Of a stretch of DNA of 64,000 bases, positions 3,595-63,981 are shown in pieces. This stretch comes from Liolophura sinensis (lineage: Eukaryota > Mollusca > Polyplacophora > Chitonida > Chitonidae). Where the stretch lies: positions 14,937,338 through 15,001,337 of the forward strand of contig NC_088302.1 in the NCBI RefSeq assembly GCF_032854445.1, given 5' to 3'. Position 1 is the first letter of the stretch. Each line of letters opens with the position of its first letter. Below the pieces are notes generated by a model. The model was not told the DNA's origin. It saw only the letters and a list, made by a program, of their open reading frames with translations, and made no database searches. The position numbers and the translations under genes were made by a program.

Positions 3595-4244
3595 TTAGTT
3601 TTTACATTCACCTTTAATGTTCTCCTTTGGCGGAAATTTTAAGTCGCATAAATCTCGTTGCTCAATTTGGAGAATCATAAAGACAATTTCCGCTTTAATG
3701 GCTCTGTAAATCTCCAGTCTATCTTCCAGCGACGGCAGACTTATCTTGCTGGTCAGGGTAGCAATTTGGTCAATCTTGCTGAGCTCTTCGGTCACGTGGA
3801 CAAGGACTTCGTGTTGTTTGGATAAGGCTTGTTGAAAGGCAAATCCAAAAGAGGTGGCGTAGACAAGACCGGCGGGGCTGAGAAAACAAGCAATGGCGTC
3901 GTTGATGTCCGGGAATAAGGAGGTGGGCCACAACGCCTGAACCAGAGGCTCGTACAGGTATATTGTGATGGGACATAGGGCTAAAGAGATTAGCGCCGGT
4001 GCAGCAATCCGCAACAGTTCCTTGGGCTTGTTGTAAAACGTCCTCAGACTTGCCAGAATCTCGATGTCGGTAGCTGTCATAAATGGCGGCTGTTCCGGAA
4101 GTTCTTTGGTGTTGTCTTGCGTAATCAAGGCAGGCCGTACCTTGAATACCGACCTCATCTTGGCTTTGGTTAGACCCGAGACCCAGACTCGACGGTACGA
4201 CTTCTTGCAGGGCTGGTATCGAGCAATCACCAGCCATAGCAACG
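3595..4244 (-). CDS. Terminal exon of an unrecognised membrane protein
   Basis: This is a 216-codon open frame without a usable ATG at its 5' end. A good acceptor (TTGTCTTTTCACAG) precedes base 4244, so it is read as the last coding exon of a longer gene, ending in TAA at 3595-3597. The frame starts with two bases of a split codon. It has two hydrophobic stretches, around exon residues 79-102 (LLRIAAPALISLALCPITIY and following) and 117-138 (ACFLSPAGLVYATSFGFAF). A helical, charged tail follows (HEVLVHVTEELSKIDQ). The pattern of two membrane helices followed by a Glu-containing helix loosely recalls the DUF4239/bestrophin-like families, but I do not recognise it firmly. Upstream exons must lie above 4260 and were not found. 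Codon use and length make chance unlikely. Confidence 0.6.
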
Positions 4245-4261
4245 CTGTGAAAAGACAACAG

Positions 4262-5440
4262 GAATCAGTTGTTATTCTTATATATTTCTATGATTTTGTT
4301 AAAGCAAGGCAAGGATTCTAGAAAAGTTTTAGATCTGGATTTAGTGGTTTACCTTTTAATTACAAGTTTGTTCCAGAAGCTTTGGCCGTTTAGAAAGTTT
4401 CAGAAAATGCATATTTAACTGTAGTATTTAGTCCCAGAAATTAGGGGAAAGGGTGAACAATGGCAAAATAATTGTAGAATGATCAAGTCCCCAAGAAACA
4501 GTAAATTAGTATTAAATCATACAGGATTCAATTTGTACCATACAATAAAGACAAATATTTGTCCAAACTTGTGTGGATGTGTTTGCATGGCTCACGACCC
4601 CAAATCTGGTACAAACTTAATGTCCAAAATTTATTTATATTTCATTCATATATATAACGCAGTACTAAAGTATATTTTGTATATACTATACAGCAGACAC
4701 ACGTGGGTGGAGGAGTGCCCTGAGCAAGAGAAACCTCTTGTAAATAACCGACAAACTTTCTTGACGCTGATTTTTACTCGCATGTAGAGCTAGCTCAATG
4801 CATGTTGTACTAGTGGACGACATCTTCAAAGAATTTCAAGCCCGCCCCCGTAAGAGGCCCTACAAGTGGTGGCAACCCCTTATTGCCAGCAGTGAGAACC
4901 GTGGAGATATCGAAATCTCGAGAGCTATTATAACGAAATACATACTCTCAAAAAACTAATCCGTTAAATTTAAAAGAAAGTCTCTTGTCCAAATGATGCT
5001 AGAATGTTTTCTGTGATTGTAACAAATTATTCTGCTAAATATAACACAGATACTTTATCAGTTCATCGTAAAGATTGTATTAGACTAACAGGATAATATG
5101 TTGAATATGACGCAGTATTATCTTATACTAGCAGAATGCATTATAGCACCACTCAGACAACACACTTAATGTTAAAATTAACAGGATATTTTTTTGAGCG
5201 TTGTAGTTCCGAGAATATTGATTCAGGTTTTATAGCACCGATAGCTGGAATGCCATACAATGGTACAATAGGGAATTGCATAAATTAGACCATATACACG
5301 TGTTTGTTGCCATGACGGTCTCAAAGGATGTATTGTTTAAGCTCATAGGGATTACTGTATTGTCAAGTATTACTGACATAATTGCGTCATGATGCTATGA
5401 CAAAGGACAACAGAGAACAACGAGCAACGCGCTCTTTACA
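4262..5440. other. AT-rich non-coding stretch
   Basis: This is probably intron of the minus-strand gene ending at 3595. Short frames here (for example 4479-4787) have no splice context or family signal. Confidence 0.4.
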
Positions 5441-13139: not shown

Positions 13140-13145
13140 ACTTAC

Positions 13146-14547
13146 CAGCGGCAATAGCCAAACAGAGAAGTAAGGGTGGCAAGAGGATCTCTGTAGATGA
13201 CGGTCGTATTTCTGACACTGGTTCTGGCTCGCTAACTGAAGTACCATTTGGCTCTGCTTGAGGTGAAGACGGCTCCGCCTTTGTGTTTGGTTCTGATGAC
13301 GGCTCAGTGTTTGGCTCTGATGACGGCTCAGCGTTTGGTTCTGATGACGGCTCTGTGTTTGGTTCTGATGACGGCTCAGTGTTTGGTTCTGATGACGGCT
13401 CAGCGTTTGGTTCTGATGACGGCTCTGTGTTTGGCTCTGATGACGGATCTGTGTTTGGTTCTGATGACGGCTCAGTGTTTGGCTCTGATGACGGCTCAGC
13501 GTTTGGTTCTGATGACGGCTCTGTGTTTGGTTCTGATGACGGCTCAGTGTTTGGTTCTGATGACGGCTCAGCGTTTGGTTCTGATGACGGCTCTGTGTTT
13601 GGCTCTGATGACGGATCTGTGTTTGGTTCTGATGACGGCTCAGTGTTTGGCTCTGATGACGGCTCAGCGTTTGGTTCTGATGACGGCTCTGTGTTTGGTT
13701 CTGATGACGGCTCAGTGTTTGGTTCTGATGACGGCTCAGCGTTTGGTTCTGATGACGGCTCTGTGTTTGGTTCTGCTGACGGCTCTGTGTTTGGCTCTGA
13801 TGACGGATCTGTGTTTGGTTCTGATGACGGCTCAGTGTTTGGCTCTGATGACGGCTCTGTGTTTGGTTCTGATGACGGCTCTGTGTTTGGCTCTGATGAC
13901 GGCTCTGTGTTTGGTTCTGATGACGGCTCTGTGTTTGGCTCTGATGACGGCTCAGTGTTAGGCTCTGATGACGGCTCTGTATTTGGCTCTGATGACGGCT
14001 CAGTGTTAGGCTCTGATGACGGCTCTGTATTTGGCTCTGATGACGGCTCTGCGTTTGGTTCTGCTGACGGCAGCGTGTTTGGTTCTGATGACGGCTCTGT
14101 GTTTGGCTCTGATGAGGGTTCTGTCTCTGGTTCTGATGACGGCTCTGTGTTTGGTTCTGATGACGGCTCTGTGTTTGGTTCTGATGACGGCCCTGTATTT
14201 GGTTCTGATGACGGCCCTGTGTTTGGTTCTGATGACGGTTCTGTGTTTGGCTCTGATGACGGCTCTGTGTTTGGCTCTGATGACGGCTCTGTGTTTGGCT
14301 CTGATGACGGCTCAGTGTTTGGTTCTGATGACGGCTCTGTGTTTGGCTCTGATGATGGCTCTGTGTTTGGCTCTGATGACGGTTCTACATTTGGTTCTGA
14401 AGAGGGCTCCACATTTGGCTCTGATGACGGTTCTACTTTTGGTTCTGACGATGGCTCTGCATTTGGTTCAGCACTTGGTTCCGTTATGGCACTCGATGCC
14501 AACAAAAGGCTTAATGTTAAGAGAGTCACGAAGCAATATTTCGTCAT
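13146..14547 (-). CDS. Secreted acidic repeat protein, (EPSSEPNT)n
   Basis: Start: the ATG at 14545-14547 has A at -3 and opens a signal peptide ([18 protein letters not shown]). Upstream in-frame codons have no ATG. About 49 copies of an eight-residue unit, mainly EPSSEPNT, follow (roughly residues 22-425), with variants EPNA, EPNV, EPKV, DPSS, GPSS and PSAEP. Next comes a short unique Ser/Glu segment and a hydrophobic end ([18 protein letters not shown]). The exon ends at 13146 before a consensus GTAAGT donor, leaving one base. If not spliced, the frame reads on for 32 codons to 13045. The protein is low-complexity, strongly acidic and extracellular by prediction. Each SSE fits the S-x-E site of secretory-pathway Fam20 kinases, so a calcium-binding phosphoprotein of matrix, mucus or shell is possible, but that is inference. 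I know no named homologue. Confidence 0.75.
13280..14465. repeat. 24-bp coding minisatellite, about 49 units
   Basis: The unit on the plus strand is GGCTCTGATGACGGCTCTGTGTTT with few substitutions. A higher-order period of seven units (168 bp) is visible in the left part: the variant word CGGATCTGTG occurs at 13445 and 13613 (168 bp apart) and again at about 13805 (192 bp, one extra unit). The right part, near the signal peptide, is more diverged. Confidence 0.95.
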
Positions 14548-14599
14548 ATTAGATCTACTGGCCGGACGATCTGTAAATAACTGATCCCTCGGCAACAGC

Positions 14600-16425
14600 A
14601 GTCCGGTGATTCCGTCAGGTTTCTAAGTTCCAAGAAGCACTTGGACACCGTTAATCATACTTGTTCATGTCTGAAGATAACGAGAGGCTGTGTTCAGTTC
14701 TGCTCCCGCTCTCTACCTCTACTGTCAATAAATGGTAACAACCCACAGCCAGTCACATCGATCCTGATTGGCTGTGTTCCCACGTGCTGCCCATCCGAGC
14801 TGCTCAGTTAGTGATGTATGCTCACGTGGTAGTCGATAGATGCCTCGATGAAGTAGAATTGGAGTGAATGATTAGCCTTGAATGCCGTACACATAGACGC
14901 CATGGCGTGTTTTGACCATCCTGTATCTACTTGGAATTCAAACGTGTTAAGTGATGCGTATTGCATTTCTGCTATTATAAAAGATGAAAGAATTTCGCAC
15001 TTGGCACTCCTTTGAATGGTACCAAGTGGACACCAAATCTCCGAGAACGCACGTCAGCGTTAAAAGGGTTTACTATATTATAGTAATTGACGAACAGATT
15101 CGGATGTCGATTCCATCTCCCACTGGTATAAGTATTTTCTTTTCTGCAGAAATACTCCTAAAATATAACTGTATAGCAATCAGTGTATAAATTATACTTT
15201 TGGAATGTCGATTACACGCACGACTCCACATTGTATATCGTTGAAAAGCATTGAAAGCTCATTTGTCTGCATGATGCTTGAGTGGTGCCACTGTCTCATT
15301 CACTTCATCTGTTCTTTCGAGGAGCGGTGCCGAACGAGGTTTTGGAAATTGGACCTGCGAGTACTGACCTCGAATATCGGCTGACAAATTGACATCAAGA
15401 ATGTCTGTTAGGGCGAGTAGCTCAGTAAATTTCTGTTAATAGGGTACACGAACAGGTACTATAAATCGCAGGGCATCGTTTTAAAGAAAATTGAGAAAGA
15501 TGTTCCAAAAAATGAAAACAAAAATCTATTTATGGGTATTATTTTATGTTTCTTAATGATCTTTCATTTTATGCATATTCCCGTCAATGGTTGGGTATAT
15601 TTAATCGGGAAATGTCGGGAATTATTTGGGCCAGCTTAACGCCCTTAATCAGCTAAGCAAAACCCTTTGCTAAAGCAAAAAAAAAAAGTTTCATGAAATC
15701 AAGTGACTTGTTCTGTAGCCTTGGAACTCACGCCTTTAACATGGCTGACTCGCACTCTGATCTGGTTTAGCCGAGTGTGGTTTGTTGTATGTATTCTTGG
15801 TTATAGCTATCAGCCACGACCTAAGAGGTCACGCGTTCAAATGCATCCCTCGCTTGTTCAGCTCTGGCCATTTACGTCAGAAAGTTTGTCTGGTACCTGA
15901 CCAAGTTTTTTCTCCTGAAGTTTAGAAGATGTCCTCCCCGGCTATTGGCCTAAACCTAAATTCTGTCGCCAAAGACCTGAGCAATCTATACGTCGAAACA
16001 GACAGACCAGCAGTCAACCAATAAGGACGTCACGGGTCAATAATCGCAAGGCCAATTCCCAAAACGTATGACACAAACCACCAAAGAAATAAGAAAGTTT
16101 CATACCGTTACCTTTATAAACAGGAAGTATAATTTCCATGTAAGCGAGTTGTCCACGTTAGTTGTCGCTGTTTATTAAATACTAGCCATATACATAGGTA
16201 TAGTTATATATAGGTATAGAGCAGGATATTACATTTATGTTTAATTTTCAGACGTGAATATATCACATCATTGCGCGTCCGCTAATAGAGTTACATTTAT
16301 CATACAACTGCCGAATGGTAGTTGACGTAAATAGCCTTCTGTAACTCATAACTTCCCCATACTCACTCTCTCTCTTTTGATATATTATTTTACAGGCGTA
16401 TACATGTCTGTATATATCCATGAAC
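14600..16425. other. Upstream flank of the repeat gene; no gene seen
   Basis: It must hold the promoter of the minus-strand repeat gene, but no certain TATA box could be assigned. A weak tRNA-like or SINE-like segment with a B-box-like word (GCGTTCAAATGC) lies at about 15770-16090. Its right part resembles 18065-18160 (shared GTCGAAACA and GGGTCAATA). Confidence 0.4.
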
Positions 16426-23819: not shown

Positions 23820-26800
23820 CTGAAACAATCATCATAATAACTGTGCTTGAGTGATATCAGGAAATCCTAGCATGATTTCTTAATTAAATGCTGAAGAATT
23901 TGTCACTTCTACAATGGCGTTTTTTTCTGACAATGACAAAACTGGAAGCTATGAACAGATTTGGTGTCTTGAAAAAGTTAACCTGTTTAAATTCATGAAA
24001 CTTTTTTGTTCTAAGTAAGTGTCTCCAAAAAAAATCACAATATTAGTCATTCCTTTACGTGATATGTTCAGTTTGTCAGCTTTATTTTAGTTTTCAGATT
24101 TCAAAGTCATTTGCGTAATGACCTGGGAGCCTCTCACCAATGCGGTCACTGTGAGTTCAAGTCTAGCTCATGCTGGCTTCCTCTCCGGCCATACGGGGGA
24201 AGGTCTGCCAGCAACCTGCGGATAGTCGTGGGTTTTCCCCGGGCTCTGCCAGGTTTCCTCCCACCCTAATGCTGGCAGCCGTTGTATAAGTGAAATATTC
24301 TTGAGTACGGCATAAAACACCAATCAAATAAATAAATAAATAAATAAATCAAAGTCATTTAATAATGTGATATTGTCAGCTCAGGGTTAACATAAATGTA
24401 TTTACATACAATCAAAGAATCCTATATGTTACATACATGTATGTCGTGCTGGGTGGAAGGCAACCACTTAATATTCCCACCAATGTCCAGAGAACAATGG
24501 AATATTAAAAATTTCTTGTCCCTGTACCAGTATGGTACTAAACCCACATCCCATGTAACCTACCTATTGAAACACAAGCAACTTATCTATTCGGGTTCAG
24601 CTTTCTGAAAAAACCATCTATGGCCTACACTCCCACCCCATGACATACACTGATATTTAATTTTATTTATTTGATTTGGTGTTTTACAGCATACTCAAGA
24701 ATATTTCACTTATACAACAGTGACCAACATTATGGTGGGAGGAAACCGGGCGAGTCGGGGGGAAACTCACGACCATACTCTGATTGCTGACAGACCTTCC
24801 TAGACTTGAACTCACAACAATCTCATTGGCGGGCGGCTCCTGGGTCACTGCACCGTGCTGGAATGCTAAGCCCCTCCTCAGCCACAGAGGTCCCCTTAGA
24901 CTGATACAAAACCACCTTTATTCCCGTAAGCCGAGAGCCAACTGAGTAAAGAGCATGATGGCCGTGAACATTCTAACCAAAGCAGGTCATCACACTGGAC
25001 TGCTGTATTTCAACTTCTCAAAAATCTCTTTAAGTGGCCCTGTATACAGGTGGGTCAATTACTCAGAATCAAGCTAAATGTGTCACTTGAAAAATGCTAA
25101 ACTTTAGTTGAACTATAGTGCTTCATGCTTGGAAACAATTGCTTCCTTCAGAAGTCGCTAAATTCCTAATGATTACGTGTTTTATTCTCTTTATGTCATG
25201 AGCTTCTGTGTGATGTCAGAGACACTCACCTCTAAGATTGGCTTCCCTGTCAACAAATCCCATGGAGGTAAGCTGTTCTAACTGGGCTGAATATCTATCT
25301 TCTGGAGACTGGAATAACAACAACAGGGTCCGCAAAAATAAATAAGAAAAATAACTAAAAAAAAAAAAGGAAAACCCACAAAAAATCCCATAAAATTGAG
25401 AATCACAAATCTATGCAAGCCAGATAAGGCCATCACCATCGATGGCACGATGTCATGGTACGATTGTACAAAGCCATCGCTTTATGGCATAAAATTTTAG
25501 AATAAACTGAATAGGCAAAAGAGAAAATACTGGGTATTGATCTATATTGAAGGATAAGGCTAACTTGAAAGACACACCTCAAGACTGAATCTACAGCATA
25601 AATATCACTCTGATTCACTGACCATTTGGGTTTGACCAGAGGCCATCATCTGCATCATTTGGGCCATAAAATTACTAAACTGATCCGGATTGCCGCCCGC
25701 TGCTGAGGGTGCTGATGTTGTTGATGTTGTTGTTGAAGTAGCAGGTGTTGAGGCTGGGGTGGTGGTGGTGGTGCTGGTGGTGACAGGGGGTGTGGTGGCT
25801 GCTGGGGCAGGGGAGCCTGTGGTAGTTGCAGGATTAGCTGTTGTCCCCCCTGGGGTACTTCCTGTAGCTGTGCTGCCCGGGGGCAATCCTCCTGCACCTG
25901 TTATACTGAAGATAATAGATTTATATCAACAGATATGCATAATTATTGGTAACTGATAAAACAAGACTGAATACTCATACTTTGATAAAGATAAAGAGTT
26001 AATGCGCAACTTCAGACCCAGGAGAAACCAGGCAGAAATATGAAGCAATCCCTCGGGAACAGAGCTAACAACACTATTTAACCACTATAAGCACGCGTAA
26101 AGATTCCTCAAAAACAAAATATTCCTGACATGATACTATTCCTTTTGTGGCGATGAATTAGGCAGATATGACGTCAAGTACGGCAGTTATGCTGGAATGA
26201 TGTCTGAATACATGACATCATTTGTGGCTAGCTATATGTCAGCAATGTGTGACATCCAGTCTTTCGCTTACAGGATATTAATAATCCAGCTATTTACCAC
26301 ACCAGTTTGATATATAAACCTTCACTTCCGAAACTCTATCACTTGGTAGTACTGTGTTCTATATTTCAGAGCAATTTATGACATTCGTCAGTAATAAAGC
26401 ATTCAAATTGATTGGTGTTTTACACCATACCACGGCAGTCAGCATTATGGGAAGATGGGGGGTGAACCGGGTTTTGGGAAACCCAAGGCCCTCCGCAAGT
26501 TGGTAGCAGACCTTTCCAGTCCACAGTTAATGTCTCCAGGTAGGGAAGAACTAAAGTAATCTCCTGCTATTTTTTAATACACTTTCTTCTGCTCCTTTGG
26601 GCTGCCTTTTTCATTTTTTCTGCTTGTTAAGTGGTATTATTTTGTAGCAAAGCCTACAAAGTTTCAATCAAGGTACACATTTTTCAGGAAATGGTGGCAG
26701 ATGCACACTAGGCAAAAACAGTGAAAAGCGAGAAGTCCCGTTTCATAATCCTCTGACTCTGTCAGCTGTTAACATATACGCAAATGGAAAATTAACTGTG

Positions 26801-41575: not shown

Positions 41576-41702
41576 CAGTTATATGAATAAATGCTCTTTG
41601 TTTTATGATTACAACCTTTAAATAAAGAAAGTACAGTGGTGATAATAAATGCTTTTCTTATTTAACAAAGTGATTGTCTTTTCTCTCAGATATCTTGCAA
41701 CC

Positions 41703-42328
41703 ATGTGTACAATGAGAAAGTCATGGAAATTATTCCTTCATGGAAAACATTGTGGAAGTGGAAAACTGCAGAGGACGTCTTCGGCCAGTGACGACATCAC
41801 ATGGTGCAGGAGGCGTTGGTTTTATCAGTCCACGTGCTGCTATGAGAGTGAAGGAACAAAATCTTACTACAACCCTCTCAAGATCCAGATGCTATCAGAC
41901 GGACTTTACAGGCAGATTTTCAGAAAGGATCGAAGCCCTATCAGTAGTGAGAACAGCCAGAAATTAATTGAGAAGAGCAGAAATGTTTTGAAGCAACATG
42001 ATCTGTGGGGAAAAGAGACAAACACACTGCCAGAAGTCGACATTAAACTGCCAAAGTTATATGGAGAAAATATTGATGATCATTTTCGACACCTTGCCTC
42101 AACTCAGACAGCTGAGTATAGACAATTAGGGGATTCATTAAGTGTGACAGACTTACCTCCCCTTCCTAAGACCTGGAAGTTCCAGAAAGGCTGGACGCGT
42201 TATGGAAAAGATGGCAGCTCTGTTCTCGTTGACTTCCCTGAAGAAAATGCAGTTGTCTTTGATATTGAATGTTTGATGACAGAAGGAAACTTTCCTACAA
42301 TAGCAACGGCCGCGTCTTCGGTGGCTTG
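41703..42328 (+). CDS. POLG: POLG exon 1 of CDS (transit peptide, Exo I)
   Basis: 208 codons plus two bases. It starts [11 protein letters not shown] and ends at [13 protein letters not shown] plus a split Trp. Exo I is VVFDIECL. Donor GTAAGA. Confidence 0.93.
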
Positions 42329-45300
42329 GTAAGAAGAATCTGAGTATTGCTGTAAAACTATCAGGCGTAAGCTTTTCAACTCCGATTTAGCATTCATTCA
42401 GTGAAACCCTGACCCTAATCCTTACCTCCACGCAGAGAGCATTACTTATTATCCTTCCTGTGGATCAAAATTAGCAGCCTTTGTCCACAAAGATTACTTG
42501 GTTATTCATTCATTTTCAATCATGCACTAACTAATGAGGTTGCAGCCTTATTGCCATCTCCCAGCCATACGTGGGAAGGTCTGTCAGCAACCTGCGGATG
42601 GTCATGGGTTTCCCCCAGGTTTTTGCCACCATAATATCCTTGAGTACAGCATAAAACACCAATCAAATCAATAAATAAATCGTGGCTGATTTCGCTGTGG
42701 TAAATGTTGGATGGGCTTGATGATTTTATCTGCGTTTACTCTGGCAGGTAACTCTGGCTAACTGAATGTTCAAGCTACATGTACATGTACCTCCATTCCA
42801 ATCAGCTTTGACATGTCAAGTTGCGACACTGAAGTGACGTACTTGTACATCATTCAGCCGTCTGTAATGAAATGATAGGTATTTTGTGGGATAAACTTGC
42901 TACAGTACACAGTTTCTCCGGTGTCATTCAGCTCTTCATACATTTAAATATCTCAGATTTTATTACAAAATGCTTTGTTTTAAACTTTTTGTAGGTATTC
43001 CTGGTGCAGCGATAATCTAATTGAAGACACATTTAAATGGAATACCAGTCCTCTCCTGGAAGACCTGATACCCCTACAGTCCACTAGAGGGAGTGGTGTG
43101 GCCTCCAGCCAATCAGTGGCCAGGATTATAGTCGGCCACAATGTCAGTTTTGACAGATCCTTTGTCAAGGAGCAATATTACATCAAGGTACATGGACAAG
43201 GTTTTCTGTTCATGATACACCATAGTTACAGGTTAATATGTTAATTTATTTTTTTTATTCCTCACAAAGGCAAGTTAAGGTTTCTGTACTTTGTGTTTGA
43301 GTTCATGAAGCCTGTCATTTTTTTGGTCCCTCAGAGCATGTGTCTTGGCTTATACATATACATGTGTTCCTCAGATTTGTCAGAATGGAAAGTTCCACTT
43401 TCTGGACATCATGTCAATGCATATTGCCCAGTTTGTGTTCATAATGTGTGTTTTATTTTTGTCTTTGTTTTTTAGAATTTTAAACTTAAGCTGCTGGACA
43501 CTTTTTAAATGCAACTTTTATTTTTAATTCCCTTTTCTGAGTTCTTAATGCTTGACCTAAAAATGGGTGTATTTCTGTATTCCTCAGAAAGGCAAGCTGC
43601 GATTTCTGGACACCATGTCAATGCACATTGCTGTGTCAGGTTTTACAAATTTCCAGCGAGTTTTGTACCAGGCTAGCAAGAGTAACACCATGACGCAGGA
43701 GATCATGGATAAGCTGAAAAAACGACCAAGGATGGATGATGGATTTGTAAGCATTTAACTCTTAGCTATACTGTAGGAATACATGCACTGTTCTTGTATG
43801 ACAATGATCAGATTTGTGGCCAGGGGATACCCAGTACACCCTTGAGGGAAACCTGTCTCAGCAAGGGGGAATCTAATTAAATCCATTTGGAAACATGGCA
43901 TTTCCATTGGGAAGCCAGGGGCATCCGTGGCTCAGTTGGTTAGCGCGCTAGCGCAGTGTAATGACCGAGGAGTCTCTCACCAATACGGTCGCTGTGAGTT
44001 CAAGTCCAGCTCATGCTGGCTTCCTCTGCGTTCGTACATGGGAAGGTCTGGCAGCAACCTGCGGATGGTCGTGGGTTTCCCCCGGGCTATGCCCGGTTTC
44101 CACCCACCATAATGCTGGCCGCCTTTGTATAAGTGAAATATTCTTGAGTACGGTGTAAAACACCAATCAGATAAATAAATAAATAAATAAATCCATTGGG
44201 AAACCAGTAACAACCATGAGGAAACTGGTCACAACAAGGGTGGGGGTAGGGGAACAGGCACACTGAAGGGAAAATTAAACTTTGTGACACCTGGAACTTT
44301 GAACATAATTTCAAGAACTAAAAGCGAGACAATGCAGGAGCCTCTCACCAGTGCAGTTGCTGTGATTTCAAGTCCAGCTCATGCTGACTTGCTCACTTGC
44401 GATATGTGGAAAGTCTGCCAGCAGCCTGCAGATCATGGGTTTCCCATGGGCTATGCTCAGTTTACTCCCACCATAATGCAATTGTATAATCCTTGAAATC
44501 AAATAAACAAAACCCAAAACTGAGAATTTTGTGCCGTCACCAGAGTTGTAAAATGTTATAAGATGGGCATAAAGGGCTGTTTAGTTTGGATGGACTGAGA
44601 TCTGGTTAAGGACTAATCGGTATGGGGAGAGGCTACTCGATGTGACTCTTGACTAGTGTAGTGCTCTCACTGCTTAGGTGACAGAAAGCGATCGAGAATG
44701 TTTGTGTGGCCATTCAGTATTTTAACATTTGATTGTTACCTCTTGTCTTCCATGGTATTTGTATATATGTACGACGCATGTGATAAAGTATGCGAGTATA
44801 ATTTGCCAGAGGTTGGTGGTTTACATCAGGTAATGTGGATTGCTCAACACATAAAACTGACCACCATTATAATTGGAAGGGGCCTCCGTGGCTCAGTTGT
44901 AATGACCCAGAAGCCTCTCACCAGTGCGGTCGCTTTGAGTTCAAGTCCAGCTCATGCTGGCTTCCTCTCCGGCCGTAAGTGGGAAGGTCTGCCAGCAACT
45001 TGCGGATGGTCGTGGATTTCCTCCGGGCTCTGCCTGGTTTCCTCACACAATAATGCTGGCCACCGTCGTATAAGTGAAATATTCTTGAGTACGGGGTAAA
45101 ACCCAATCAAATAAATAAATAAATAATCTTTTTCTACTTTTGTTCATCTTAACATTAAAGTATTTGAAAATCATGGCGCATTAATTTTTATTGTGTAATG
45201 ATTTTTATACCATTGTCTATTCCTGTTTTAAACTTCTCCTAGTCCAATGAGTGGATGTCATCCGGTACTATGAACAACCTGAGTGATGTGTACCAGTATC

Positions 45301-54300: not shown

Positions 54301-57300
54301 GTGCTCCTACTGGAAGAACAACCAGGAGAGAATCGAGTAAGTGCATGCAGGAATCCATCCCGAAAAGTGCTTCATTTCTAAATTGGAGTGCTTACCTCGC
54401 CAACAAAAACTTGGCACAAATGCTCCAAACTGCACCACACTTTTGGTTGTAGAAAAAACGAGCCAAGCAGCTGGGTTTATTATATGACTATGTCCGTTTG
54501 CGTACTCAAGTGTTTGTTGAAGACCACTTGTCTCACAACTATATGGTATGTGGTATATTCATACGTGGGAAAACTTGTCGGTAATGTTGCCAAAGGTTGG
54601 TGGTTTTTCCCAACAACTCTGATTTCTTCCACCCTTAAAAACTGATCTCCGGTGTATTTGTGAAAAATTCTCGAGTTTGTTTTTTTTTAGGAATTCAGTT
54701 ACCGTGGTAATAAACAGAAAAGAAAGAAAAATAAGAAGCATTCTTATCAGTAGCTTAAAGGGATCTGTATTGTTCTCATATCATCTAATGAATAGACATC
54801 TGCTTGAAGTATTTGCACACAAATATATAGCATAGTATTTTAATAGGCATCTTTCTGTATAATGTGTACAATAATTAAGACTTGGTATTTGTTTGATCTC
54901 AAATATTTTTTTGTAGATCACAAATGGTTGTGTGGCTTCAGAAAAACCAACTTCCCAGGACTATTACAAGGTAATGTTTTTTTTGCTAGATTACTAGAAA
55001 ATATGTGCAGTGCATACAATTGAGGTTATGTATCATTTTCGTATGTTACCAGATCATGGAAATTGATCACTTAAGGTATAGAGTGCTGCAGCTGAACTGC
55101 CAAGAGCTGGATTTGAACCTGCGACCTTGCTGGTCAAGAGATATAAAAGAATGATATACTTGGACTTAAAAATGTAGTGTGTATGATGCTAACCAAAGCA
55201 TATTATACATGGCCTTGCCGATGCAAATATTACCACTATAAGTCATATAAGATTACACTTTTTTTAAGGTGCAGAAAACATAAGAATAATATAATATATG
55301 AAAGAGTTTGAAATATGCTCTTAAATTGTTTTAGCTTTTTGTCATTGCTGTTGAGGACTTGGTTAAAATAAACAGTCAGCACTGTTGTGGCCCTGATGCA
55401 GTCTTTTCTACCCCGCTGTCAGTTGCGGGCTGTGTGCAAACATACTTATTAAATAAAGATGATCTTTCAAACAACATTGAGTGTGTCACACAACCTTCCA
55501 GCTGACACATTTACCTACCTGAGTAATAGCATTTCATACTGCTTTATGTTTACAAATAAAAGAATTTGAGTTTGTTTACTTGTTTGATTTGTTTTTATGA
55601 TTTATATAGAAGCACACTATCGGAATTTCCTTCAGTGATGAAAGTGTTACTTTGCACAGTTTACAGATATCGCTTCTGCTTTTACATTTTTGATAGTTTA
55701 CACGCAAATTTCATGATGTGGAAAAAAGAAACATTTGTTTCATGATGTTCCAATCTGAATACACGTGCAGTGTACTTCTACATTCCTGTGTCTCACAACA
55801 ATAAGACGTGACGCCATACATACGCAGATGTGAAGTATCTCGGTCAGCTGTAATGGCCTAAGCTTGCCGTTTATTGGTCTAAAATGCACAACCTCTGCAG
55901 AGGGAGTGAAACAGAACTGTTTTTGCCTCATTTTCTTCATTTTTTGTGGTAGAATAGACTTTAACACCTTCGTCTTGGTGTTTGTTGTGTAACCCGATAC
56001 CGCTGAACCTTGAACCTTGAATCAAATCCCGAGAATGCATAGCGTTGCTAAACCCTTAAATGAGGACAACCTCTCTTCCACTGACAAGATGTGCATATCT
56101 GTATGTCACATAAAAAAAAGGTTTGTCGGTAACTGGTTTCTGCCACCCATTAAACTGGATTTTATGGATTTACGACTTCTTAGTTTATTGTCACAACGAT
56201 TCGATGCGGATACTAGCATCATTATCAACTGAATGACATCATAACGCAAAGTACTTAAATATAACAAGTAGAGCTGTAGGTGTCAACAGGTAAGAAAACA
56301 ATAGAGTTATGTAGAGAAAAAGTGTACAGAGGATGAAGGGATAAGGGGTATGTCCTACTGGCTATGGTTTGGTAAGGTGTGGTTGGTGGGGGGGGGGCGT
56401 ACTAGTTAGGCTCGGTGGGGTTCCTGGTCGAGTTCCTGGTCGGCTTATCAGTATCAGGAACTGACTATGATTGCAAAATTCTTTAGTATGGCAGTAAACA
56501 TCAGTCCCATAAATGTATGAATACTTACACATTAGTGATGTGATTGGTTTGTCCCATGCCTGGCAAAGGTTGGTGGTTTACACCTGGCACTCTGGTTTCC
56601 TCCAGCCATTAAACTGATGTGATTGGTTTGTCCCTTACCTGGCAAAGGTTGCTGGTCTACACCTGGAGCTCCGGTTCCCTCCAACCATTAAACTGATGTG
56701 ATTGGTTTGTCCCATACCTGGCAAAGGTTGGTGGTTTACACCTGGCGCTCAAGTTTTCTCCAAACATAAACCTGATGTGATTGGTTTGTCCGTTACCTGG
56801 CAAAGGTTGGCGGTTTACACATGGCGCTCCAGTTTCCTCCAGCCATTAAACTGATGTGATTGGTTTGTCCCATACCTGGCAAAGGTTGGTGGTTTACACC
56901 TGGCGCTCCAGTTTCCTCCACCTATTAAACTGATGTGGTTGGTTTGTTCCTTACCTGGCAAAGGTTGGTGGTTTACACATGGCGCTCCAGTTTCCTCCAG
57001 CCATTAAACTGATGTGATTGGTTTGTCCCTTACCTGGCAAAGGTTGGTGGTTTACACCTGGCGCTCTAGTTTCCGCCACCCATTAAACTGACCAACATCA
57101 TATACTTGCAAAAGTCTTAAGCCATATTACATTGAACAGGAATCAAGAAAATAAACAAAATAATATGCTGTGGTTTAGGAACCCCATTTATGATGATGAG
57201 TCAGGTCAGTACGGAGCGATTCTCCCAAGAGTCATTCCAGCGGGAACTGTGACTCGCAGAGCTGTAGAGCCAACGTGGTTAACAGCCAGCAATGCTTATG

Positions 57301-61690: not shown

Positions 61691-63981
61691 ATATATATTG
61701 ATAAGTATTGCACATGAGTTTTGAAAAGCATGCGTTTTTATACTTGTGATGTTGCATGGATAACTAAGATATTGCAGTTCAAAGTAAACAATAGCACATA
61801 CATTGAGAAAATTGAATGCAATGCAAGGTTATCAATTTGAACAGTGAGGCTCAGGTTTTCTATCTTTCTACCCCTCTTTCTGAATTCTAATTTAAATTAA
61901 GGAGGTTTATATTACTTTCTGTCTTTTCTTTTAATACATACATTGCTCACTTTTGGGTTTGATTCCCAAGAAACCTAAACCAAATACTGTAGTTCTCTAA
62001 ATCTTTAACCTTGACAGGGCAACTTTCAGTGCAATTTATGCACATTTTTAAATTGATTTTTAAGACAAAACTACATTGCTGGGATTAGACAGTATCTTTA
62101 TAGTATAGAATTTTATTGGTGAACATAAAATAATACATTCAGAATATGCTTGGATAAGCACTTTGCAAACATGTGAAAAGGTTGAAGAAATAAAATGTTT
62201 ATCTGGCCAAATTACAAATTTAAGTAAGACTTCCTATTATTTAAGATATATTCTGATTGAATTATAAGGATATAGTCTTACGGTACATGGATTCTGTATT
62301 TTAAGGAAATAATTAGCACAAGTTTTTGAAGCTTGCATCTTTAATAATGATCAGTTTTCTGCCGAAACTCTTGTGCAATAGTCTCAAATGGCTGGAAACA
62401 AAATTTGGTTAATAAATGAGAATTGATAATTGCCATATGCACTAAATTTCACTTTATTGTTACAGTTTATGACTAGCCGTGTGAATTGGGTAGTCCAAAG
62501 TTCTGCGGTGGATTATCTCCACCTGATGCTGGTCTCCATGCGATGGCTGAGTGACGAGTTTGACATTGACGCTCGTTTTTCCATCAGCATCCATGATGAG
62601 GTGCGTTACCTGGTGAGGACAGAGGACCGTTACCGGGCTGCTCTGGCGCTGCAGATCACCAATCTCCTGACAAGGGCAATGTTTGCTTACAAACTCAGCT
62701 TCCATGACTTGCCACAGGTATTCCACTAATGAGCAGAATGAACTTTGTTTAGGGTATAAAAATTAAAGCAAAACTCAAAAAGTCATCTATTCATCATCAT
62801 TATCATCAAGTCATGTAACACATTAAGACTGGACAAAATAAAAAGGCAGATTTTGAATTTTATTTTTATGCCATTTTTGGATTTTTTAATGTCAGCTTGC
62901 CTGTAAAACACACAATACAGGTAACCAACCCCAATAATTGGGTTGGTAGAGCATTGGCTATAAGAGGCTGTAGGTCCAGGGTCATTTGCTGGCTTGAGTA
63001 ACACCTAAGACCTTGAAAAGAAGAGGAAGTTCCTCACTGGATAAAAGAGCGGAGGAAATCCGTCCTGCAACAAGGAGACACATTACACACACACTAGGGA
63101 TTCCTTTGTCGTTAAGTACGACGTTAAACCCAAACCCTCACTCACTCATTTCCTAAATGCATGTAAAAGTGTTGTGGCCTTAGCTGAATATATTAACTTA
63201 TGTATTTGTTGCCATGTGTTTTATGTTAATGTTTATAAGTTCACTCTGTCATTGAAATACTTTTTCCGCTGCTCCTTGTTGCAGGCACATCTATGACATT
63301 ATCCATATTATGAGAACTGTGAATATGAGCGGCGTAGAGTTTTGTATCTTTACTCTGTTTTTTGACTTGAAACTCTATATTTCAGCTCACATAAAATAGA
63401 GAAAATTGTCCGAATAATGTATGAGGCTTCCTGATTGATTTGATTTGTTTGTCAATGAAGAAATACTCATCATGCACAACTGAAACAGAGATGTGGATGA
63501 AAATTGGTGTGTCACACGTGGGAAAGTTCTTCCCTGATTTGTCATAGGCTAGTGGTTAACTCCAGGTTCTGATTATGTTAATTCTTTGTGAATTAATGAT
63601 CATCAGAATGGATTAATGCTAAGTCAGCAATATTTCAGTCATATTGTGGTGATGAATTATCTTTAGAGGGATACAGAATCGATTTTGATTGGCTAACAGT
63701 GGAGATAGGGTTTGCTGGGTTAAAACTGCAGCCTTGGTCACGCTTCAGTAGATCTGCCACACCTTAGATTCAGCTTAGGCTGTGCCTATCTCTCATTCCA
63801 GCCAATCAGAATCACTGCCCACCAATCGATCATTCAAACAGTCTGTTATTTCTCTGTTTACAGTCAGTAGCCTTCTTCAGTGCCGTTGACCTGGATACCT
63901 GTCTGAGGAAGGAAGTCTCTATGGACTGTGTCACACCATCTAACCCCCATGGGCTGGAACGGGGCTACGGCATTCCACATG
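41703..63981 (+). CDS. POLG: POLG: mitochondrial DNA polymerase gamma, catalytic subunit (3' end cut)
   Basis: Twenty-one exons join in phase to 3328 bases, 1109 residues plus one base; the last twenty or so residues lie beyond the window. This family-A polymerase replicates and repairs mitochondrial DNA. The N-terminus is basic with almost no acidic residues ([18 protein letters not shown]), fitting a matrix-targeting sequence. 3'-5' exonuclease: Exo I DIE at 187-189, Exo [11 protein letters not shown] with D262, Exo III Y378/D382. Linker about 400-700 includes [23 protein letters not shown] and a charged Lys/Glu stretch. Polymerase: motif [19 protein letters not shown] with D834 and D836, motif [13 protein letters not shown] about 891-902, motif C HDE at 1029-1031. 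All catalytic residues are present. The ATG at 41703 was preferred to the in-frame one at 41649 because an acceptor lies between them. The segment between motif B and MFNKLE is about 45-50 residues shorter than in vertebrates. Confidence 0.97.
42541..42682 (+). mobile_element. SINE family 1, head-truncated
   Basis: GTGGGAAGGTCTGTCAGCAA, CCTGCGGATGGTCATGGG, then a shortened end ATAAAACACCAATCAAAT. It lies in POLG intron 1, sense. Confidence 0.88.
42995..43187 (+). CDS. POLG: POLG exon 2 (Exo II)
   Basis: It encodes [16 protein letters not shown] through [20 protein letters not shown], the Exo II motif. Acceptor TTTTTGTAG, donor GTACAT. Confidence 0.96.
43252..43440 (+). pseudogene. Decayed partial duplicates of POLG exon 3
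   Basis: Copy A (43252-43287): the acceptor TTCCTCAG became TTCCTCAC, followed by AAAGGCAAGTTAAGGTTTCT, which has an in-frame TAA. Copy B: an acceptor-like TTTGTCAG precedes 43384, then an open stretch [16 protein letters not shown], against [16 protein letters not shown] in the real exon; it lacks the exon's 3' part and a good donor. Both lie in the intron directly before exon 3. Confidence 0.75.
43588..43746 (+). CDS. POLG: POLG exon 3
   Basis: Fifty-three codons: [33 protein letters not shown] and so on to DDGF. Acceptor TATTCCTCAG, donor GTAAGC. Confidence 0.96.
43917..44193 (+). mobile_element. SINE family 1, full-length copy
   Basis: Head TCCGTGGCTCAGTTGGTTAG, CGCGCTAGCGCAG, B box GTGAGTTCAAGTCCAGC, full body and (AAAT)n tail. 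It lies in POLG intron 3, sense. Confidence 0.96.
44331..44507 (+). mobile_element. SINE family 1, old diverged copy
   Basis: ATGCAGGAGCCTCTCACCAG, GTGATTTCAAGTCCAGCTCA and TTTACTCCCACCATAATGC remain. The tail region is deleted. Confidence 0.85.
44879..45127 (+). mobile_element. SINE family 1, near-full copy with head deletion
   Basis: GGGGCCTCCGTGGCTCAGTT is followed directly by GTAATGACCCAGAAGCC, so about 20 bases of the head are lost. The body and (AAAT)n tail are intact. Confidence 0.95.
45243..45383 (+). CDS. POLG: POLG exon 4
   Basis: Forty-seven codons, [20 protein letters not shown] through [16 protein letters not shown]. Acceptor TTCTCCTAG, donor GTTTTG (weak). Confidence 0.94.
46751..46830 (+). 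CDS. POLG: POLG exon 5 (Exo III)
   Basis: It encodes [26 protein letters not shown] plus two bases. The YxxxD Exo III motif is present. Donor GTAAAT. Confidence 0.95.
47141..47394 (+). mobile_element. SINE family 1, near-full copy
   Basis: Starts CTCAGTCGGTTAGCGTGCTA, then B box GTGAGTTCAAGTCC, full body and (AAAT)n tail. It lies in POLG intron 5, sense. Confidence 0.95.
49212..49280 (+). mobile_element. SINE family 1, 3' fragment
   Basis: TTGTATGAGTGAAATATTCT, TGAGTATAAAGTAGACACCA and a degenerate AAAT tail. Confidence 0.75.
49380..49562 (+). CDS. POLG: POLG exon 6
   Basis: It encodes [30 protein letters not shown] and [12 protein letters not shown], a strongly conserved POLG segment. Acceptor ACTGATCAG, donor GTAAGT. 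Confidence 0.97.
49981..50104 (+). CDS. POLG: POLG exon 7 (Lys-rich linker)
   Basis: It encodes [38 protein letters not shown] and TEN. Acceptor TTCCACTGCAG, donor GTAATT. Confidence 0.93.
50533..50633 (+). CDS. POLG: POLG exon 8 (acidic linker)
   Basis: It encodes [33 protein letters not shown] plus two bases. Donor GTATGT. Confidence 0.92.
50871..51092 (+). mobile_element. SINE family 1, head-truncated copy
   Basis: It begins TGCAGGAGCCTCTCATCAAT and ends GTAAAACACCAATC with an AAAT/AAAA tail. It lies in POLG intron 8, sense. Confidence 0.95.
51745..51931. mobile_element. MITE-like element with terminal inverted repeats
   Basis: The left end TTAAAGAGATACAGAAG mirrors the right end TTCTGTCTCCCTTTAA. 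The interior is homologous, in inverse orientation, to 63661-63825 (ACAGTGGAGATAGGG, CAGCTTAGGCT, AACCTAAACATGC against GTGCCTATC). No transposase frame, so non-autonomous. Confidence 0.75.
52121..52360 (+). CDS. POLG: POLG exon 9
   Basis: It encodes [39 protein letters not shown] and [17 protein letters not shown]. Acceptor GTGGTTACAG, donor GTGAGT. Confidence 0.97.
53238..53409 (+). CDS. POLG: POLG exon 10
   Basis: Fifty-seven codons, [20 protein letters not shown] through [16 protein letters not shown]. This is a less conserved stretch; phase and splice sites (TTTGTGCAG, GTAAAG) fit. Minus-strand frames over it are shadows. Confidence 0.88.
53673..53750 (+). CDS. POLG: POLG exon 11
   Basis: Twenty-six codons, [26 protein letters not shown]. 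The VDIxGCWF block is typical of POLG. Donor GTAAGT. Confidence 0.95.
54179..54336 (+). CDS. POLG: POLG exon 12
   Basis: It encodes [52 protein letters not shown] plus two bases. Donor GTAAGT. Confidence 0.96.
54917..54970 (+). CDS. POLG: POLG exon 13
   Basis: Seventeen whole codons, [17 protein letters not shown], with split codons at both ends. Acceptor TTTTTTTGTAG, donor GTAATG. Confidence 0.94.
55614..56012 (-). mobile_element. MITE-like repeat, inverted copy 1
   Basis: The reverse complement aligns along its whole length with 58881-59313, sharing ACAACAAACACCAAGACGAA, GGTGTTAAAGTCTATTCTAC and AAACTGTGCAAA. Both ends carry a short inverted TATCGGA word. No coding capacity is seen. Confidence 0.82.
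56536..57088 (+). repeat. 79-bp satellite, seven units
   Basis: TGATGTGATTGGTTTGTCC starts at 56536, 56615, 56694, 56773, 56852, 56931 and 57010, exactly 79 bp apart each time. The units carry TACCTGGCAAAGGTTGGTGG, TTTACACCTGGCGCTC and TTTCCTCCAGCCATTAAACT. It lies in POLG intron 13. Confidence 0.96.
57179..57299 (+). CDS. POLG: POLG exon 14
   Basis: It encodes [40 protein letters not shown], the invariant start of the polymerase domain. Acceptor GTGGTTTAG, donor GTGAGT. Confidence 0.97.
57829..57964 (+). CDS. POLG: POLG exon 15 (polymerase motif A)
   Basis: It encodes [45 protein letters not shown] plus one base. It contains the metal-binding Asp of motif A (D834). Donor GTAAGG. Confidence 0.98.
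58659..58765 (+). CDS. POLG: POLG exon 16
   Basis: It encodes [35 protein letters not shown]. Acceptor TTTGTCAG, donor GTGAGG. Confidence 0.97.
58881..59313 (+). mobile_element. MITE-like repeat, copy 2
   Basis: Inverted relative to 55614-56012. It starts AAGGTTCGGTGGTATCGGAT and ends AAATTCCGATAGTTCACC. The pair flanks POLG exons 14-16. Confidence 0.82.
59430..59670 (+). mobile_element. SINE family 2, head-truncated copy
   Basis: GGTGTCATGTCTGGTGTCTT, CAGCATCATACTT, ACACATCTAATGACT and CATATGACTGAAAAATTAAG match the family 2 body and 3' end. Confidence 0.7.
59990..60108 (+). mobile_element. SINE family 1, 3' part
   Basis: GGCCGTGGGTTTCTCCTGAG, CTCTGCCCAGTGTCCTCGCA, ATATTCTTGAGTATGGCC and an AAAT tail. 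It lies just before POLG exon 17. Confidence 0.88.
60135..60274 (+). CDS. POLG: POLG exon 17 (polymerase motif B)
   Basis: It encodes [40 protein letters not shown] and TTKGIR plus two bases. Donor GTAGGA. Confidence 0.96.
60362..60630 (+). mobile_element. SINE family 2, copy with tRNA-like head
   Basis: CCTAATGGTTAGAGCATCCT is the A-box region and GGGTTCAAATCTGG the B box. The two are nearly adjacent, so the head is internally shortened. The body contains GGTGTCACGTCTGGTGTCGT, and the end is ATTTGACTGACAAATTG. Confidence 0.8.
60782..60811 (+). CDS. POLG: POLG exon 18 (30-bp micro-exon)
   Basis: It joins in phase as [11 protein letters not shown]. Acceptor TTTCTTCTCAG, donor GTAAGA. The EWRDGSES join matches the pattern W-x-G-G-T-E-S before MFNKLE in vertebrate POLG. 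Confidence 0.75.
61496..61610 (+). CDS. POLG: POLG exon 19
   Basis: It encodes [38 protein letters not shown]. Acceptor GACATTTCAG, donor GTGAGT. Confidence 0.96.
61652..61699. repeat. AT dinucleotide microsatellite
   Basis: Two (AT)n runs are separated by one TTT interruption, 40 bases after POLG exon 19. Probably length-polymorphic. Confidence 0.95.
62466..62717 (+). CDS. POLG: POLG exon 20 (polymerase motif C)
   Basis: Eighty-four codons: [60 protein letters not shown] and FHDLPQ. The HDE motif is intact. Confidence 0.98.
62930..63150 (+). mobile_element. Possible SINE family 3
   Basis: It has an A-box-like GGTTGGTAGAGCATTGGC and a weak B-box-like AGGTCCAGGGTC. It ends GTACGACGTTAAACCCAAAC followed by CTCACTCACTC. 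A tail fragment recurs inverted at 38855-38892. Confidence 0.55.
63661..63825. mobile_element. MITE-like element, second copy
   Basis: TTTAGAGGGATACAGAATCG, CAGTGGAGATAGGG, CTTGGTCACGCTTCA and CAGCCAATCAGAA match 51745-51931 in inverse orientation. It ends about 40 bases before POLG exon 21. Confidence 0.72.
63864..63981 (+). CDS. POLG: POLG exon 21 (partial gene end)
   Basis: It encodes [39 protein letters not shown] plus one base. Donor GTATGT. A short final exon should follow beyond the right edge. Confidence 0.96.

Follow-up and report, generated by a model that had tools for sequence, protein, structure and literature searches.

Layout of the frame and favoured reading

What kind of protein, if any, is encoded by a long run of near-identical acidic repeats in a molluscan genome? 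We address this question for a 64,000-nucleotide stretch of Liolophura sinensis DNA (contig NC_088302.1, positions 14,937,338 to 15,001,337; hereafter the window), in which a minus-strand open frame (13147-14547) opens with an ATG, continues without a stop as far as a strong splice donor and specifies 467 amino acids dominated by the unit EPSSEPNT. We tentatively assign this frame to an animal gene as its main coding exon; the product would be a coat protein, extended and polyanionic, tethered to the membrane and probably phosphorylated. This reading falls somewhat short of an even chance, and we prefer it to that of a soluble matrix or mucus phosphoprotein, which we regard as possible and distinctly less probable.

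The open frame, the repeat, the hydrophobic stretches at both ends and the donor sequence are directly visible in the DNA (Table 1). The best 10-residue segment of the start has a hydropathy of 2.48, and the ATG of the repeat gene is among the 10 of 2754 ATGs in the window that pass our home-made signal-peptide rule, in line with the signal peptide proposed in a first-pass annotation of this DNA. At the other end, 14 hydrophobic residues with a mean hydropathy of 2.61 lie flush with the donor, as that annotation had also pointed out; among the 27 donor/phase combinations given by the GGTAAGT sites on both strands of the window, this end ranks first, and the runner-up reaches 1.43. The acidity ascribed to the chain is evident from 104 Glu and Asp against 3 Lys and Arg beyond residue 20, Lys and Arg being absent from units 3-50, and the single N-glycosylation sequon of the whole protein (NGT at 434) lies outside the array. 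A single-sequence AlphaFold model places helices only at residues 2-19 and 456-466 and is of low confidence throughout (mean per-residue confidence score, pLDDT, 44.9; below 50 at 375 of the 467 positions). Such a model agrees with a chain that is disordered between its hydrophobic ends but is not strong evidence for one.

Taken together, these features suggest how such a protein might work. We infer that the gene is transcribed and spliced, and that its product is exported, anchored and phosphorylated and acts as a brush. The protein would enter the secretory pathway through its signal-like start, and the roughly 400 residues of EPSSEPNT units would be disordered and extended. Because the hydrophobic end follows a hydrophilic stretch and stands at the donor, it suggests a glycosylphosphatidylinositol (GPI) attachment signal or a membrane span, of which the GPI signal seems more likely than a through-going span; either would be completed by a short last exon, and the C-terminus would then keep the chain on the outside of the plasma membrane. 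A search for this last exon listed zero sites under a strict acceptor filter, and under a looser, crude filter it gave 13 acceptor-like sites down to position 4300, with tails of 1-51 residues, none of them convincing. A Golgi kinase of the Fam20 type would probably phosphorylate the first Ser of each SSE, adding to the two glutamates per eight residues, and the resulting polyanionic brush might space, hydrate or protect an epithelial surface, or gather calcium there.

The first-pass annotation had envisaged a secreted, heavily phosphorylated matrix or mucus protein. Its observations are confirmed, and its interpretation is supported in part: a membrane tether, which it left uninterpreted, is likely, and a cell-surface protein is at least as likely as a secreted matrix or mucus protein. 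The soluble alternative, in which Fam20-type kinases would phosphorylate the SSE motifs of a shell-matrix or mucus protein and the chain would bind calcium, does not account for the 14 hydrophobic residues at the donor, for which a membrane anchor is the better explanation. The alternative can nonetheless point to the S-x-E motif, present in 50 of 50 units, and to several reports from molluscan shells. In the Lottia shell proteome, 16 of 46 Ser/Thr phosphosites are described as fitting S-x-E or related motifs, and the authors allow that their method may miss densely phosphorylated repetitive proteins (PMC4094399). For Lottia, Haliotis and Pinctada, about 30% of shell matrix proteins are reported to carry repetitive low-complexity domains (RLCDs), and calcium binding is ascribed to the acidic ones (PMC4897951).

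Table 1. Elements of the repeat gene in window coordinates.
Feature	Position	Strand	Basis or remark
Signal-peptide-like start, residues 1-20	14488..14547	-	Translation and hydropathy; possible cleavage after SSA
50 tandem 24-bp units, EPSSEPNT and variants, residues 23-422	13282..14481	-	Tandem Repeats Finder and in-frame split
Higher-order repeat: units 30-36, 37-43 and 44-50, 168 bp each	13282..13785	-	Unit-to-unit identity
Glu-Pro-rich stretch beyond the regular array, residues 423-453	13189..13281	-	Translation
Hydrophobic end, residues 454-467	13147..13188	-	Hydropathy; may be a GPI-attachment signal or the beginning of a membrane span
Splice donor GGTAAGT (cut after the first G), phase 1	13140..13146	-	The window has 9 such sites
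Open extension of the frame 5' of the ATG, stop-bounded, without a further ATG	14548..14622	-	Probably 5' untranslated

The repeat array and its recent growth

Tandem Repeats Finder describes the array (13282-14469) as 49.5 copies of a 24-base period with 89% matches and 0% indels. The first-pass estimate of about 49 repeats therefore stands as to the repeat itself, with the count corrected to 50 when units are taken in frame: 32 EPSSEPNT, 6 EPSSEPNA, 3 DPSSEPNT and 9 others. The whole protein contains 51 S-x-E motifs, 47 of them SSE, and the density of such motifs noted in the first-pass annotation holds up; that these sites are phosphorylated is suggested by the motif.

The array also holds a record of its own expansion. 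Units 37-43 and units 44-50 are exactly identical, and units 30-36 differ from units 37-43 by 3 bases in 168. Units 29-50, compared with one another seven units apart, show an identity of 0.986, and 14 units apart one of 0.974; the remaining 12 lags from 1 to 13 give 0.904-0.948. Because of this lag-7 identity and the identical 168-bp blocks, the last 21 of the 50 units look recently copied in seven-unit blocks, and the 168-bp higher-order duplication shows recent growth of the array. Length variation between individuals would therefore be expected.

Family and database comparisons

The best Pfam resemblance by E-value is to procyclin (Trypan_PARP, PF05887; 44.9 bits, E 1.4e-11, profile positions 59-127 of 134), in a match that reaches residue 467. 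The generic disordered PT repeat (PF04886) scores 24.5 bits with the whole protein, below its cut-off of 26.2, and 28.4 bits, above that cut-off, with residues 23-420 alone. The earlier claim that no named family has this unit thus survives in so far as none was found, with the qualification that the array alone passes the PT repeat threshold and that procyclin appears below its own. NCBIfam gave no match up to E 10. Nor did the EPSSEPNT unit or its variants turn up as protein among 5.39 million open papers; the lone match to the unit is listed as a study of species richness in sharks and rays.

A mucin-type protein, with O-glycans rather than phosphate on Ser and Thr, is an unlikely explanation: tandem repeats with 33% Ser plus Thr and 23% Pro are what we take to be a mucin-like composition, but every Ser and Thr of the unit has a glutamate at most 2 residues away, which we assume disfavours GalNAc transferases, and Pfam, with the whole exon and E up to 1, listed PARP and PT only and no mucin domain.

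Candidate relatives from other collections did not hold up. With E values of up to 10, the PDB gave matches to 15 different sequences, namely 9 circumsporozoite constructs, 3 entries of ribosomal protein eL29, 2 XTEN fusions and 1 OCM3 (E 2.4e-18); their best stretches all lie within residues 39-436, inside the array or adjoining it, and we set them aside as composition effects. Among viral contigs 10 stretches fit the repeat pattern and one was confirmed, at 23% identity. This hit was rejected because the matching frame has 6 stops and because GTKFGTKF and NQVRGQVR repeats make up its surroundings, with EPSSEPN-like sequence confined to short stretches between them; the single open reading frame of at least 150 amino acids in that region consists of those two other kinds of repeat. 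Among prokaryote genome contigs 111 stretches fit the pattern and none was confirmed, and phage records gave no match, a weak result since the BLAST low-complexity filter was on. These DNA searches covered viral and prokaryotic collections, and they say little about animals.

Coding strand and the case against a tethered coat

Differences of the units from their consensus carry a strong synonymous excess in the minus frame: 60 of 89 are synonymous where 33.9 are expected, a value reached in 0 of 5000 simulations. As units copied from one another are not independent, each distinct change was also counted once, which leaves 11 synonymous changes of 23 (7.0 expected; reached in 199 of 5000 simulations). 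One minus-frame change scores as a stop, an artefact of base-by-base scoring that we attribute to the three-base Ser codon difference TCA to AGT in unit 1; the actual frame is stop-free.

Several observations weigh against a tethered coat encoded on the minus strand. The antisense plus frame (GSDDGSVF / VFGSDDGS) shows 59 of 89 synonymous differences against 32.0 expected and, with distinct changes counted once, 11 of 23 against 6.9 (reached in 186 of 5000 simulations). Five hand-picked diverged units (1-4 and 18 of the 50) do not separate the frames either, with 9 changed residues when read on the minus strand and 10 when read on the plus strand. As for the likeness to procyclin, its 44.9 bits do not reach the curated cut-off of 100; residues 23-420 alone keep 41.6 of them, and neither residues 421-467 alone, that is, the tail, nor residues 1-22 alone have any Pfam match, so that the resemblance is, from these scores, mostly one of composition. 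The putative GPI signal is imperfect by the usual rules, since the small triplet SST stands one Glu from the hydrophobic stretch and no better-spaced site is present. Finally, trypanosomes without procyclins are reported to be still transmissible by the fly (PMC2637416), which would make the model coat itself dispensable.

The synonymous excess cannot choose the strand because the frame offset puts the third positions of both frames at the same sites. Codon-position bias was likewise rejected as strand proof, EPSSEPNT and VFGSDDGS being equally biased, and the lack of indels was rejected as coding proof: a 79-bp minisatellite elsewhere in the window (56536-57091; 7 copies, 89% matches) also has 0% indels. 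Only these two frames, EPSSEPNT on the minus strand and GSDDGSVF on the plus strand, are open across the whole array. Another minus-strand frame, in which residue 380 is the first Met, covers 93% of it; the remaining open stretches of at least 100 codons each cover 57% or less.

These same results are what one would invoke for an array without the proposed product, be it an untranscribed minisatellite, a dead gene whose signal-like start arose by chance, or a locus whose antisense frame is the expressed one. The equally strong excess in the plus frame fits that explanation, as do the second minisatellite, also free of indels, and the fact that a repeat whose period is a multiple of three keeps several frames open together. 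We nonetheless consider it improbable, since in the minus frame, and there together, a signal-like start, a Glu-Pro-rich flank and a hydrophobic end at a strong donor coincide. The 440-residue plus frame begins 20 bases ahead of the array and does not reach a Met until residue 409. Lacking an initiation codon before the array, it could be expressed only with an upstream exon. This late first Met favours the minus frame.

Genomic setting

The surroundings were characterised by a Pfam scan of seven open frames of the window. The exonuclease part of mitochondrial DNA polymerase gamma (PF18136) lies at 41649-42332 (+; E 7.9e-34) and a polymerase part (PF00476) at 62430-62729 (+; E 9.1e-07, 28.6 bits, below the 34.3 cut-off), which suggests one gene spread over some 21 kb and marks the DNA as eukaryotic. 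At 3595-4287 (-) an open frame resembles bestrophin (PF14023; 31.6 bits, just under the cut-off of 32), and at 25605-25925 (-) lies a Thr/Pro/Ser-rich open frame, followed by a distinct segment of 21 residues, whose only Pfam match is a sub-threshold one to a phage tape-measure model. Its look is reminiscent of a ubiquilin-like or BAG6-like exon. Rfam, at its gathering score, and ARAGORN returned nothing in the window.

A dispersed element with the 19-base core GAGTACGGCGTAAAACACC occurs at 13 sites with up to 3 mismatches, among them 278, 24303, 40814, 44146 and 51050, and at none in 100 shuffles. We presume it to be widespread in molluscs and other lophotrochozoans, so that it would point to a lophotrochozoan source; a literature search did not confirm this, and two 12-base stretches of the element matched only texts on coronavirus or other viral RNA.

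Comparison with known systems

By its general features the predicted protein is of a common kind, that of repetitive low-complexity secreted or surface proteins, with a unit that was not found in the open literature. Repeats of this class are frequent in secretomes that evolve fast, so that the protein is only modestly surprising in general. It resembles the RLCD proteins of molluscan shell matrix and mantle, which are described as having short tandem repeats, typically of about 10 residues, as evolving fast through slippage and as often disordered (PMC4897951). The combination by which RLCD proteins are recognised, an export signal with a short repetitive low-complexity domain, is found here, the signal by our own rule. 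RLCD proteins are, however, usually Gly/Ala-rich by the same source (PMC4897951), and the repeat protein here may be membrane-anchored. A literature search combining repetitive shell proteins with GPI anchoring returned papers in which the GPI term did not occur. The match to the PT repeat is one of composition type, and that model describes disorder and composition, not function.

A second comparison concerns phosphorylation. Vertebrate Fam20C substrates of the SIBLING/phosphophoryn type are alike in their dense S-x-E motifs and acidic chain, whereas the 467 residues here include no RGD motif. As expected of a Fam20C substrate, the predicted secretory protein combines S-x-E motifs, 51 in all, with a signal-like start. 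In molluscs, Fam20C is described as a minor component of the Lottia shell proteome with mostly very low phosphosite occupancy, and its authors state that conservation of the S-x-E motif in invertebrates is not known (PMC4094399); in the pearl oyster, fam20C is reported to take part in shell formation, and its knockdown to disturb nacre (PMC5824888). If expressed, the array would offer a clean, natural and regular S-x-E series, a substrate for measuring Fam20-type phosphorylation and calcium binding per unit.

The remaining comparisons are with Glu-Pro-rich coats. Tsetse EP of Glossina, which is reported to protect the fly midgut against trypanosomes, likewise comes from an animal and combines a predicted signal sequence with an acidic Glu-Pro repeat that is long and described as extremely hydrophilic (PMC2832768). 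Its EP dipeptide repeat is C-terminal, after a non-repeat part, whereas here EPSSEPNT units begin at residue 23; the text examined of that paper does not mention a hydrophobic end (PMC2832768). The other such coat is that of the EP and GPEET procyclins of Trypanosoma brucei, which share the Glu-Pro-rich short tandem repeats and for which a GPI anchor, protease-resistant repeats and a role as coat in the tsetse midgut are described (PMC2637416). The signal-like start and hydrophobic C-terminus here suggest the same layout. The differences are as clear: 50 units of eight residues with Ser, Asn and Thr in place of EP or GPEET, a frame interrupted by a splice donor, and a mitochondrial DNA polymerase gamma gene nearby. 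We read the resemblance as one of convergence. It is tempting to speculate further that a lophotrochozoan independently evolved a procyclin-like, GPI-anchored coat of some 50 near-identical acidic units, each phosphorylated at its SSE, which would make an epithelial surface calcium-gathering or protease-resistant, and that this coat varies in length between individuals through the 168-bp duplication; in this full form the proposal is doubtful. If expressed, the tethered protein might nevertheless be the counterpart, in an animal, of the procyclin coat.
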